DNA of 37,578 bases from Thermoplasmata archaeon (lineage in GTDB: Archaea > Thermoplasmatota > DTKX01 > VGTL01): contig JAWCLH010000028.1 in NCBI GenBank assembly GCA_038851035.1, positions 1-37,578 on the forward strand, written 5' to 3'. This document shows, in pieces, positions 21,823-26,775 of this stretch (position 1 is the first letter of the stretch; each line of letters begins with the position of its first letter). The notes beneath the pieces were generated by a model. That model saw only the letters and a program-made list of their open reading frames with translations, was not told where the DNA came from and made no database searches. A program made the position numbers and the translations under genes.

Positions 21823-22707
21823 TCACCCGTAGAGTATCCTCCGCGCTACTCTTCGCCATATCCCATCCACCAGCCTGCCGAACCCCTCTGGCTCGAGCTC
21901 TACCACCGTTTTCTCCGCGACCATGGCTCTGGCCGGTGCGTCGCTGTACGGCAGCTTCCCAGCGAGCTCGAGCCCACGCTCCGAGCACCAGCGCTCGATG
22001 CTCTTTGTATTTCCTTCGTTCAGGTCGTGCTTATTGATGCAGACCATCGCTGGCACATTGAAGTGCTCGCAGACCTCCAGAACGCGTTCCAGGTCGTGAA
22101 TTCCTGATGGCGTGGGCTCGGTGACTAGCAGCGCCAGGCTCGCTCCACCAAGCGAGGCGATTACGGGGCAGCCCGTCCCGGGCGGCCCATCCACGATGAT
22201 AAGCCCCCTTCCCTCCCTTTTCGCGAGCTCCCTCGCGCTCTGCAGGACGAGCGAGACCAATTTTCCAGAAGCCTCTCCCCCCGGCTCCAGCTCCGCGTGC
22301 GCCATTGGACCGAAGCGAGTCCGTGATATAAAAGCCGAGCCCAAAACTCTCTCGACGTATCTTATAGCCCCGGCGAGGCATACGATTCCGCAGACGCCGC
22401 AGCCCTCGCAGCGCTCCGCGATTATTCTGAATTTCTCATCGATGGCGAGGAAGCGGCAGCGCTCACGGCAGGCGCCGCACCCAGTGCATTTCGCCGGGTC
22501 TATTTCGGCCAGCCTGGGCCCCTTGAACTCCTCCATGCTGAGAATCTCTGGCCTGAGTAGGAGGTGGAGGTCAGGGGCGTCGACGTCGCAGTCCGCAAGA
22601 ACCGCGCCCCGCGCGAGGGAGGCGAATGCCGCAGCTAGGGAGGTCTTCCCCGTTCCTCCCTTGCCGCTGATGACCGTGAGCTGCCTTATCTCTCCACCAC
22701 ACCTCAT
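21823..22707 (-). CDS. MinD-type ATPase with inserted 2x[4Fe-4S] ferredoxin domain (second of pair)
   Basis: A 294-residue cytoplasmic P-loop ATPase of the SIMIBI/MinD class. The deviant Walker A is SGKGGTGKT (residues 14-22), and DCDVDAPD follows at 39-46. A ferredoxin insert has C74/C77/C80/C84 and C100/C103/C106/C110, giving two [4Fe-4S] sites, as in COG1149 proteins. Switch-like VDGPPGTGCP is present at about 172-181. Proteins of this kind come in pairs in anaerobes and are linked to Fe-S or metal-cluster assembly and to the Desulfovibrio Orp complex. The true start is ATG 22707, which overlaps the stop of the paired upstream gene (ATGA), so the two should be made together, likely as a heterodimer. 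The open frame upstream of 22707 is noise. Confidence 0.93.
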   Translation of the reverse strand: MRCGGEIRQLTVISGKGGTGKTSLAAAFASLARGAVLADCDVDAPDLHLLLRPEILSMEEFKGPRLAEIDPAKCTGCGACRERCRFLAIDEKFRIIAERCEGCGVCGIVCLAGAIRYVERVLGSAFISRTRFGPMAHAELEPGGEASGKLVSLVLQSARELAKREGRGLIIVDGPPGTGCPVIASLGGASLALLVTEPTPSGIHDLERVLEVCEHFNVPAMVCINKHDLNEGNTKSIERWCSERGLELAGKLPYSDAPARAMVAEKTVVELEPEGFGRLVDGIWRRVARRILYG

Positions 22708-23543
22708 GCCACCGCCTCCAGTCTCTCCAGCAGTTGCGCGAAGCGAGATTCCATCTCCGGAATCGCGATTGGAGGAACACCCTTTGAGTAGAGCCTGGCC
22801 ACCTCCATGCTGTTGGGAATTCTGAGGAGCACCGAAACCCTCTCCCGCGCGCACCACTCCTCGACCCCGGCGTCCCCGATTCCGTCCCTGTTGACGACAA
22901 CGCCGAACGGGATACCCAGCTTCCTAATCACCCTAACCGCTATTTTGAGGTCGTGCAGGCCGAATAGCGTGGGCTCGGTCACGAGGACGCAGAAGTCGCT
23001 CCACCGGACCGTCTCCACCATCGGGCAGGCGGCGCCCGGTGAGGAGTCGAGAACCACGAGCTCCCTGACCGCCATCGGCCTCAGAGCCCTGATGACCGGG
23101 ACCGCCGCGGTCTCGCCGATGTTCAGCCGTCCCTCCAGAAGCTCCAGACCATTTTTCACCCCGCGGCTCAGTGCGCCCACGGTCCGCGACTCCTCCCCAA
23201 TCGCCCCTCTCGGGCACACGAGGGCGCAGCCGCCGCAGCCATGGCAGAGCTCCGTGAAAAGGAGCACATCGGAGGGCAGGACCGCGAGTGCGTGGTAGTT
23301 GCAGAAGTCGGCGCATTTCCCGCAGAAGTCGCACCTGGATTTGTCGATTCGGGGGACGGCCAGCCGCACCTCACCCGCCGGCCTCATCTCCGCTCCGACG
23401 AGAAGGTTGCAGTCGGGCGCCTCGACGTCGCAATCGAGCAGCTGAACCATCCCCGGGCGCCGGGAAGACGCGAGGAGGGCGAGGCTGACGGCCACGCAGG
23501 TCTTTCCCGTCCCTCCCTTGCCGCTCGCGACGGAGATTATCAT
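22704..23543 (-). CDS. MinD-type ATPase with inserted 2x[4Fe-4S] ferredoxin domain (first of pair)
   Basis: A 279-residue paralogue of the next gene. Walker A SGKGGTGKT is at residues 7-15 and LLDCDVEAPD at 36-45. Ferredoxin cysteines are C71/C74/C77/C81 and C100/C103/C106/C110. The N-terminus MIISVASGKGG is typical, so ATG 23543 was chosen; ATG 23570 or 23573 (MMEKGG) would add about ten residues and cannot be excluded. The much longer open frame to 24179 overlaps the CoA-binding gene in another frame and is spurious. The VVLDSSPGAACPM segment replaces the more usual DGPPG switch, so ATP turnover may differ between the two partners. The role is inferred: ATP-driven assembly or transfer of an Fe-S or metal-sulfur unit. 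Confidence 0.93.
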   Translation of the reverse strand: MIISVASGKGGTGKTCVAVSLALLASSRRPGMVQLLDCDVEAPDCNLLVGAEMRPAGEVRLAVPRIDKSRCDFCGKCADFCNYHALAVLPSDVLLFTELCHGCGGCALVCPRGAIGEESRTVGALSRGVKNGLELLEGRLNIGETAAVPVIRALRPMAVRELVVLDSSPGAACPMVETVRWSDFCVLVTEPTLFGLHDLKIAVRVIRKLGIPFGVVVNRDGIGDAGVEEWCARERVSVLLRIPNSMEVARLYSKGVPPIAIPEMESRFAQLLERLEAVA

Positions 23544-23626
23544 AACGCCATCCCTCCCTCCTTTTTCCATCATAATAATCGGGCCAAATGGGTATCCGCT
23601 AAAGACCCCACCTTCCCCGGGCCCCA

Positions 23627-24066: not shown

Positions 24067-24426
24067 TCAGTGCCTGTGCTCCCTGGACGCGGTCTCCTCG
24101 CTCGCCGGCAAAAGCCTTCCACGCTTCCACAGCTCGAGGGTCTCACTGACGGTGCCCCGGGCGCCCATGTAGACCTCAATCCCGACGCTCTTAAACATCG
24201 CGATAGCTCTCGGCCCCATCCCGCTGGCCAGCATCACCTTTACCCCCTCCCTGGCGAGGTGCTCCGGGGGTTTTCCGGCTCCGCCCATGTGCTCGCTCCT
24301 GTTCTGAATCACCTTAACCTCGTCCGTTTCGCTGTCCACTATCGTGAATGTGGGGGCGCGGCCGAAGTGCTCGATCACGAGCTCGTCCAGCCTCCTCTCA
24401 CCGAGGGTTGGCACCGCTACTTTCAT
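24067..24426 (-). CDS. NifX/Orp-like dinitrogenase-cofactor family protein
   Basis: A 119-residue protein of the Nitro_FeMo-Co (NifX/NifB C-terminal) family. It starts MKVAVPTLGE and has a HFGRAPTFTIVD strand, then RSEHMGGAGKPPEHLAREGV and LASGMGPRAI, the pattern of such proteins. The family binds iron-molybdenum or copper-molybdenum-sulfur units; the Desulfovibrio orange protein (Orp) belongs to it. ATG 24426 overlaps the stop of the zinc-ribbon gene (ATGA), so coupling is likely. No nif structural genes are in the window, so nitrogen fixation is not implied. The C-terminus is charged (ASREHRH). Confidence 0.93.
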   Translation of the reverse strand: MKVAVPTLGERRLDELVIEHFGRAPTFTIVDSETDEVKVIQNRSEHMGGAGKPPEHLAREGVKVMLASGMGPRAIAMFKSVGIEVYMGARGTVSETLELWKRGRLLPASEETASREHRH

Positions 24427-24647
24427 TTCTTCCCTCCTCCCTTCTTCCCCGCCTTTTTTCCAGCGTCCTCCGCCCTCATCTCCGCACAGTGCTCTCCCTT
24501 CATGAATGCCCCGCACCGCGGGCACTTGATAGAGCTGCACGGAATTCCTCTTGTATGCTCGATTTTGTTACTGCACTTTGGGCATATGCAGAACCTCGAG
24601 CCGTAGCTCGAGGCGAATCGCCTCGTGTCTTCGACTTTCTTCGCCAC
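24423..24647 (-). CDS. Small zinc-ribbon protein
   Basis: A 74-residue protein with two Cys pairs, CPKCSNK (around 22-25) and CPRCGAF (around 42-45), plus C20 and C37, forming a zinc ribbon. The C-terminus is Lys/Gly-rich (AGKKAGKKGGGKK). The start is GTG 24647. Such small ribbons are common in the Orp/NifX/MinD gene sets of anaerobes, where their job is not known; metal or Fe-S binding is an alternative to zinc. It overlaps the start of the NifX-like gene by 4 nt. Confidence 0.8.
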   Translation of the reverse strand: MAKKVEDTRRFASSYGSRFCICPKCSNKIEHTRGIPCSSIKCPRCGAFMKGEHCAEMRAEDAGKKAGKKGGGKK

Positions 24648-24725: not shown

Positions 24726-25082
24726 TCACTCAAGCTCCTTCATTCTCTTCTTTATCTCATCGAGCCTCGCCTCGAGCGCCTTTCTTTCCGCCTCAAGGAA
24801 CTCCTTCTCCTGCCTGGGCGGGATGGCGGGCGGAAAGGGAGGGGGGTAGCCGTATGGGGGCTGTCCTGGCGATATGCTGTCAGAGGGCCTGGGCACTGGA
24901 GGTGGATATCCATACGGCGGGTACCTGCACCTGCCCCTCCCCTGTCCCATTCCCCCTCCGCCCCCCCGCCCCATCCCGCGTCCCATGCCGCGTCCCATCC
25001 CGCCCCCCATACCGCCTCCCATGCCCCTTCCCCCACCCCCCGAAGCCGGGGGACCACGTCGTCGGGCTGCCTCCGGGAGCAA
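24726..25082 (-). CDS. DUF5320-type segment, probable C-terminal half of a frameshifted NifX fusion
   Basis: This frame encodes a Gly/Met/Arg repeat (GRGMGGGMGGGMGRGMGRGM), a Pro/Tyr linker (YPPYGYPPP, twice) and a coiled-coil end (EKEFLEAERKALEARLDEIK), the layout of DUF5320 proteins. No good start exists: TTG 25082 and ATG 25022 are the only options, and both lie inside the NifX-like frame. It is the +1 frame relative to the NifX gene. A one-base indel in the G-runs at about 25027-25050 would join the two into a NifX-DUF5320 protein. It may also be a separate, overlapping gene. See the matching finding. Confidence 0.6.
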   Translation of the reverse strand: MLPEAARRRGPPASGGGGRGMGGGMGGGMGRGMGRGMGRGGGGGMGQGRGRCRYPPYGYPPPVPRPSDSISPGQPPYGYPPPFPPAIPPRQEKEFLEAERKALEARLDEIKKRMKELE

Positions 25083-25410
25083 GGGCCTCGCCTAAGAGAT
25101 ACTTCCCGACCGCCTCCCTCACGGGAATTCCGACGACCGGGGCCATCACTATTCCCGCCTGCGCCAGAACCTGCGACGCGTGGGGCCCGAACCTGCCAGC
25201 GATGACGGCCCTGACGCCTTCCTTTGCGGCGAGCTGCGCGACCTGAATTCCGACGCCCCCCATGTCGCCCGCGAACTGGTTCGGGACCACCGTTGCATTC
25301 TTGATCTCCTTTGCATCGACCTCCACAATCGTGAATGTAGCGCAGCGCCCGAAGACATTCGACACGATGTCGTCCAGCCCGCCTTTAGTCGTCGCAACCA
25401 TGATTTTCAT
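24880..25410 (-). CDS. NifX/Orp-like protein, C-terminus probably frameshifted
   Basis: Residues 1-115 match the NifX-like family: MKIMVATTKGGLDDIVSNVF, GRCATFTIVEVD, NQFAGDMGGVGIQVAQLAAK and IAGRFGPHASQVLAQAGIV. After GKYLLGEALAPGGSPTTW (to about 125) the frame becomes Gly/Arg/His-rich without clear family pattern, and ends at 24880 without similarity. In the +1 frame the same DNA gives a well-formed DUF5320 end. So the true protein may run 25410 to 24726 through a frameshift. GGTGAG before the ATG 25410 serves as a Shine-Dalgarno sequence. It is 32 nt downstream of the stop of a stand-alone DUF5320 gene (25443-25835). The role is inferred as a carrier for a metal-sulfur unit, by family. Confidence 0.85.
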   Translation of the reverse strand: MKIMVATTKGGLDDIVSNVFGRCATFTIVEVDAKEIKNATVVPNQFAGDMGGVGIQVAQLAAKEGVRAVIAGRFGPHASQVLAQAGIVMAPVVGIPVREAVGKYLLGEALAPGGSPTTWSPGFGGWGKGHGRRYGGRDGTRHGTRDGAGGRRGNGTGEGQVQVPAVWISTSSAQAL

Positions 25411-25442: not shown

Positions 25443-25835
25443 CTACTTCCTCAGCTCCTCCAGCCGCTTCTTGATTTCGGCCACGCGCTCCTCAAGCGCT
25501 GAGAGCTCTTCGGTTAGCGACCTCTCCTCCTCCTCCCTGCTCATACCGGAAGGTTGCGGGTAGCCGGGGTAGCCCGGTGGAGGAGCCCACAGGCCCCACC
25601 GCGGTGGCGGAGCGGAGTGGCCAGCCGCGCCTCCAGTCCCCGAGGGAGGCGTACTGCCACTTCTCAGCCACGGGTTGAGGAACCACCAGCACGCCCAACG
25701 CCCGTAGACCCAGCCAGGCCTTTGCCAGGGCGGAAGGTGGCTGAATGGCCCCCTCCCCGGCCACGGGCCCCCGAAAAACACGCGGCCCCGGCCTGCTCCT
25801 CCTCCGTATCCGCATCCATACCAGCCGCTCCACAT
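25443..25835 (-). CDS. DUF5320 protein
   Basis: A 130-residue protein with a Gly/Trp/Tyr/Arg-rich N-terminus (MWSGWYGCGYGGG), a Trp/Pro-rich middle, and a coiled-coil end (EEEERSLTEELSALEERVAE then IKKRLEELRK) typical of DUF5320. The family has no agreed function but is repeatedly encoded next to Mrp, NifX-like and MinD-ferredoxin genes in anaerobes. It likely binds a partner through the coiled coil. A GGTGATG just before ATG 25835 gives a good ribosome site. The coiled coil resembles that of the DUF5320 segment at 24726-25082, so the two arose by duplication. Confidence 0.83.
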   Translation of the reverse strand: MWSGWYGCGYGGGAGRGRVFFGGPWPGRGPFSHLPPWQRPGWVYGRWACWWFLNPWLRSGSTPPSGTGGAAGHSAPPPRWGLWAPPPGYPGYPQPSGMSREEEERSLTEELSALEERVAEIKKRLEELRK

Positions 25836-25860: not shown

Positions 25861-26775
25861 TCACTTATTCGGGCCATCCTCACTGCCTTTGCCGCCCTCT
25901 ACTTTCCCCTCCTCCCCTCCCTCCTCTTTTTGCGCGCCTCCCACGAGCTCCTCAACCTTGCGTGCGATTTCTTCGAAGGCCTTCGCGGTGGGCGAGCTCA
26001 TAGACTCCGTCACGAAGGGCCTCCCCGCGTCGCCCGTGTCCGTTATCATCGGGTCGAGCGGTATGCAGCCCAGGAAAGGAACCGTGAGGTCCATGCAGGC
26101 CCTCATCCCGCCGCCGGTCTTGAAGACATCGACTCTCTTTCCGCAGTGGGGGCAGGTGAGGCCGCTCATATTCTCTATGAGGCCGATGACTGGAAGGTTG
26201 AGGGCCCGGGCGAAGTTGATTGACTTGCGCACGCTGAGAAGCGCGACGTCCTGCGGGGTCGTTACTATCAGCGCCCCATCGGGCCCCGGCAGGAGCTGGG
26301 CGATGCTCAGGGGCTCGTCGCCCGTGCCCGGGGGCAGGTCGATTATGAGGTAGTCGAGCTCGCCCCACTTCACCTCGCCCAGGAATTGCTTGATTGCCAT
26401 CATCTTGAGCGGCCCGCGCCAGATAACAGGCGAGTCGTTATCGCTCAGCAGGAAGCCGATCGACATCACTTTGATTCTGGGCGCGACGGGAATCGGCTCC
26501 ACACCGGCGCCCGTGACGACAGGTCGCTTTCCTTCAACGCCGAGCAGCTTGGGAATCGTGGGACCGTGGATGTCGCAGTCCAGAATTCCAACAGTGTGCC
26601 CCCTCATCGATAGCGCCACCGCGAGGTTGGCGGCAACCGTGCTCTTTCCGACTCCGCCCTTTCCGCTCATGATGACGAGCTTGTGCTTTACGTCCTTTAG
26701 AGCGATGTGGATGTCGATTTCGTCCGCGCTCTTCGGCCGCTCTCCGCTCTCCCGCTTCTCTTCAGCGTTCTGCAT
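25861..26775 (-). CDS. Mrp/NBP35-type Fe-S carrier ATPase
   Basis: A 304-residue cytoplasmic protein of the Mrp/ApbC/NBP35 group, which holds and transfers [4Fe-4S] clusters in an ATP-dependent way. Walker A is GKGGVGKST at residues 38-46; [14 protein letters not shown] follows at about 67-80, [10 protein letters not shown] at 146-155, and the cluster-binding CPHC at 208-211. The Mrp-specific [10 protein letters not shown] makes the call firm. The C-terminus is a Gly/Glu/Lys-rich tail. It overlaps the end of the DUF134 gene by 14 nt and precedes the DUF5320 gene by 25 nt, so one operon is likely. It lacks the N-terminal DUF59 domain of bacterial Mrp. Confidence 0.96.

Follow-up and report, generated by a model that had tools for sequence, protein, structure and literature searches.

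Two overlapping reading frames on the minus strand of the window (the whole 37,578-nucleotide stretch of Thermoplasmata archaeon DNA that was analysed) are very probably the two parts of one gene for a NifX/ORP-type carrier, a linker and a coiled coil, a gene whose frame was broken within the linker's G-runs by a non-programmed change amounting to one base. The original prediction, that a single NifX-DUF5320 fusion gene had been split by a +1 shift, is strongly supported by a comparison with relatives: wherever a coiled coil follows their NifX domain (53/53), the two lie in a single open reading frame (ORF). The locus contains the following features:

24880..25410, minus strand: NifX-like (Nitro_FeMo-Co / Di-Nase) ORF in frame 0, with an ATG start and 176 aa (PF02579)
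24726..25082, minus strand: +1-frame ORF, DUF5320-like; Gly/Met-rich linker followed by a Pro/Tyr-rich stretch, with a coiled coil at the C-terminus (PF17253, tail profile)
25023..25041, minus strand: G-runs GGGGGG T GGGGG AA GGGG, with the predicted frame change within them (sequence, family motif, G-quadruplex-like motif)
25020..25022, minus strand: first in-frame ATG of the +1 frame past the G-runs, a possible internal start (Shine-Dalgarno-like duplex, -12.0 kcal/mol)
24729..24812, minus strand: C-terminal coiled coil QEKEFLEAERKALEARLDEIKKRMKELE (aligned with the coiled coils of single-ORF relatives; strong +1 codon signal)

The two frames and the junction between them

The two ORFs overlap at 24880-25082, exactly where the overlap had been placed. 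The NifX-like ORF, whose start at 25410 has a clear Shine-Dalgarno match, belongs to PF02579 (67.1 bits over residues 13-104, cut-off 26.3). It is family-like to about 25036, after which a 0-frame tail of about 47 residues is unlike the family. The +1-frame ORF is 118 aa long, from TTG 25082 to a stop at 24726, and its frame is open from 25091. It reads GMGGGMGGGMGRGMG..., then a Pro/Tyr-rich stretch, then the coiled coil. The match to DUF5320 (PF17253) was confined to the +1 frame and passed the cut-off of 27 with 28.2 bits; its alignment spans profile positions 13-99 of 99 and is partly low-complexity. In a six-frame search of the genome the score was 23.7 bits, under that cut-off.

A tail profile was built from 38 relatives. 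It gave 41.7 bits for the +1 ORF and 45.6 bits for the joined reading, compared with 2.5 bits for the 0-frame tail and 5.5 bits for the third frame, and the second frame is therefore more than a chance product. Both the loss of family similarity in the NifX frame and the DUF5320-like nature of the +1 frame, as originally described, are borne out by these scores. As assembled, the two domains lie in two frames, and they come into one chain only when the frame is read through the G-run.

By codon-usage log-odds, the NifX frame is preferred as far as 25081 and, beginning at 24810, the +1 frame; the low-complexity DNA between these positions is ambiguous. Neither codon-position GC over the G-rich linker nor a codon-usage HMM, which called the linker non-coding, located the switch. 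At the junction the relatives read '...APMFGGMGMGGG...'; in the window, frame 0 gives '...SPGFGGWGKG' and the +1 frame 'MGGGMGGGMG'. The upstream part of the motif, FGG-M/W-G, is thus in frame 0 and the downstream part, MGGGMGGGM, in +1. On this motif the switch most likely falls after FGG and before ATG 25022, at about 25035-25023, in agreement with its earlier assignment to the G-runs (GGGGGG at 25041-25036, GGGGG at 25034-25030 and GGGG at 25027-25024). The tail of the window contains G-runs of 7, 6, 6, 5 and 5 and three G-quadruplex-like motifs; among 27 relatives, none exceeds a single run of 6. DNA that is rich in G-runs or G-quadruplex-like is liable to slippage and to sequencing trouble.

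Fusion architecture in relatives

Homologues came from three sources: 60 related genomes, 61 loci on GTDB contigs, and a search through 390 genomes of the phylum. Separate profiles for the NifX part and the coiled-coil part were run against all six frames of the examined loci and the window. For 54 distinct NifX domains a coiled coil was found no more than 480 nt downstream. In 53 of these cases both parts shared one ORF, and only in the window did they lie in different frames. The coiled-coil profile derives from single-ORF fusions and leans toward that class, although it is frame-blind and still found the shifted copy in the window. Among the examined loci the split architecture is therefore found in the window alone, and the comparison with relatives that had been proposed as a check for two separate genes showed none split.

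PF02579 and PF17253 were both matched in 18 of 20 aligned single-ORF fusions. Within one ORF, the recurrent order is a NifX domain, then a linker rich in Gly/Met or in Pro, and a coiled coil at the C-terminus; in other NifX relatives a zinc ribbon takes the place of the coiled coil, or the domain is followed by nothing more than a Gly-rich tail or lacks a tail altogether. The NifX domain of the best relative is 64% identical to that of the window, and a class search (5 genomes) gave no homologue in a same-family genome. Single-ORF NifX (PF02579)-linker-coiled-coil (PF17253-like) proteins from archaea, Bipolaricaulota and Chloroflexota (for example loci L032, L036, L041, L047 and L082) share the domain order, the Gly/Met-rich linker and the coiled coil with the window. 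Their frame is continuous in every case, whereas the window needs a +1 shift. Because all the other loci with NifX and a coiled coil are single-ORF, the locus is read as a fusion gene: as judged from sequence, it is a broken member of an ordinary NifX-linker-coiled-coil family. A limited search of the open-licence literature found no paper on the NifX-linker-coiled-coil/zinc-ribbon arrangement, and likewise nothing useful on DUF5320.

Some relatives depart from the common arrangement. The NifX fusion at L046:1171-1767 ends in a coiled coil that in its relatives L042, L043 and L052 belongs to the next gene, a ferredoxin, and this looks like recombination or misassembly between two low-complexity linkers. 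In L037, L038, L049, L061, L064 and L065 (the last cut by the contig end) the Gly/Met-rich linker of NifX leads to a zinc ribbon and not to a coiled coil; in other relatives this zinc ribbon is encoded by an adjacent gene of its own. Downstream of the fusion ORF in L042, L043, L045, L048 and L052 there is a ferredoxin with a Pro/Met-rich linker and a C-terminal coiled-coil-like segment, which suggests that several proteins of the cluster share one docking or assembly device.

Cause of the frame break

The coiled-coil frame contains no stop and has kept its codon bias, and the break is therefore either recent or artificial. A sequencing or assembly error has perhaps a slightly better than even chance of being the cause. 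A real, recent indel in the lineage or strain is also a serious contender, at somewhat below an even chance. These were two of the three causes originally offered, and both remain candidates; the third, programmed frameshifting, was not supported.

When 0.84 Mb of the same genome was scanned for frame switches, seven candidates with long overlaps emerged; this is a rough guide only, since the scanner performs poorly in low-complexity DNA and failed to detect the NifX target itself. One candidate lay on a run of Ns, one PF04060 gene looks truly broken, and the rest resembled, by eye, ordinary gene overlaps. Frame breaks in this genome are rare yet present, with one other credible case in 0.84 Mb, and their low rate speaks mildly against a generally poor assembly. 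This second likely break is at L117:12599 on the minus strand (contig C18 of the same genome, G000), where the upstream frame has no family match and the other frame, which lacks a good start, encodes an Fe-S domain (PF04060, 52.8 bits). A comparable split is known from the Pyrococcus furiosus chitinase PF1233/PF1234, an archaeal gene divided by a one-base insertion and continuous in a relative (PMC3575233), although it is a different gene from the NifX gene of the window. In the annotation of the present assembly the NifX gene can be expected to appear truncated and to be accompanied by a spurious, separate DUF5320 gene.

It is highly unlikely that the locus consists of two separate genes, a NifX carrier with a new tail of its own and a DUF5320-like protein starting at ATG 25022. 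The second frame had been thought to lack a start codon, which proved incorrect: in addition to TTG 25082, ATG codons are in frame at 25022, 25010, 24998 and subsequent positions. The Shine-Dalgarno-like pairing of ATG 25022 with the core of the 16S rRNA 3' end, at the -12.0 kcal/mol given above, is within the best 0.7% of minus-strand ATGs and stronger than that of nearby true starts (-8.5 to -10.2 kcal/mol), and separate DUF5320-like genes do exist, one of them adjoining at 25443-25835. However, intact fusions carry internal in-frame ATGs whose matches are just as strong, as low as -13.8 kcal/mol, and the signal at ATG 25022 is therefore probably a by-product of the Gly/Met-rich, G-rich composition of the linker. 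An internal start for the DUF5320 frame, which by the original account would have counted against the split-gene reading, was for this reason largely set aside. Two separate genes are also hard to reconcile with the fusion of the parts in all relatives with a downstream coiled coil (53/53), with a 0-frame tail unlike the family and with the missing N-terminal end of DUF5320 in the +1 ORF, where the match begins only at profile position 13.

It is barely credible that the G-run is a site of programmed +1 frameshifting by the ribosome, or of transcriptional slippage, that yields a carrier with a short alternative tail as well as the full fusion. The relation between the two long open frames is a clean +1, the site is G-rich, slippery and G-quadruplex-like, and the carrier domain would be in both products. 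Against this, none of the 53 other fusions is shifted, and no stop codon is present at the site, where the 0 frame stays open to 24880 and continues for about 47 family-unlike codons. Programming is disfavoured for these reasons, and no known shift signal was found at the site; a non-programmed indel is far likelier. Moreover, the archaeal recoding established up to 2021 consists of stop readthrough and -1 shifting (PMC8037382). A lineage-specific form, in which programmed +1 shifting or slippage in the G-quadruplex-like G-run would set the ratio of free to coiled-coil-tethered carrier, is just as hard to credit. If true, a programmed +1 shift here would be a first case of +1 recoding in archaea.

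Finally, the possibility that the +1 frame is an incidental open frame and that there was never a fusion is refuted, for although high-GC, low-complexity DNA produces spurious long ORFs, including several in this interval, the tail profile separates the +1 frame from the third frame, the codon signal over the coiled coil is strong and the relatives are single ORFs throughout.

Gene neighbourhood and putative function

The broken fusion gene has the following neighbours:

25443..25835, minus strand: DUF5320-like gene of its own, next upstream of NifX (PF17253 20.5 bits, cut-off of 27 not reached)
25861..26775, minus strand: Mrp/NBP35 P-loop ATPase (376.8 bits to the NTPase part of NF041136 MrpORP, the best NCBIfam match; equivalog cut-off of 450 not reached)
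24423..24647, minus strand: zinc-ribbon protein (CxxC pairs; only weak Pfam matches)
24067..24426, minus strand: second NifX-like protein (PF02579 85.2 bits)
21823..23600, minus strand: two MinD-type P-loop ATPases with inserted ferredoxin domains (CbiA/ParA and Fer4 matches)

A DUF134 protein and a CoA-binding protein are further neighbours. The C-terminal coiled coil of the DUF5320-like gene at 25443-25835 resembles that of the split fusion. In relatives, separate zinc-ribbon genes related to 24423-24647 come after the fusion.

This Mrp/MinD-ferredoxin/NifX cluster resembles the ORP system. In Desulfovibrio, MrpORP is a Mrp ATPase joined to a Di-Nase domain; both bind Fe-S clusters, which are passed to the ORP complex (PMC6345978). 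As in the window, a Di-Nase domain, a Mrp/NBP35 ATPase and two ferredoxin-type ATPases are encoded together in that system. In the window, by contrast, the Mrp ATPase (25861-26775) and the Di-Nase protein (24880-25410) are separate genes, both below the 450-bit equivalog cut-off of NF041136, and it is the Di-Nase protein that has the linker and coiled coil. The nearest solved structures, which by sequence are of the same domain, are MTH1175 (PDB 1eo1, E 1.5e-21) and ORP (PDB 2wfb, E 2.2e-13). Their chains have 120-124 residues and the match ends with the domain, leaving no room for a linker and coiled coil.

By analogy with the ORP system of Desulfovibrio, the product of the window's gene is a putative metal-cluster carrier, with a coiled coil that may serve in assembly or docking. 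The intact protein would carry an Fe-S or Mo-type cluster for the adjoining Mrp and MinD-ferredoxin ATPases; its Gly/Met- and Pro-rich linker would be flexible, and the coiled coil would mediate docking or oligomerisation. A real break would leave the cell with a carrier ending in about 47 wrong residues and deprive it of the tethered coiled coil, although a little free coiled coil might perhaps be made by internal initiation at ATG 25022.

Whatever the cause of the break in this genome, the NifX-type carrier is, across archaea, Bipolaricaulota and Chloroflexota, commonly one chain with a low-complexity linker and a coiled coil or zinc ribbon. The carrier, coiled-coil and zinc-ribbon modules also occur as separate adjoining genes in the Mrp/MinD-ferredoxin cluster.
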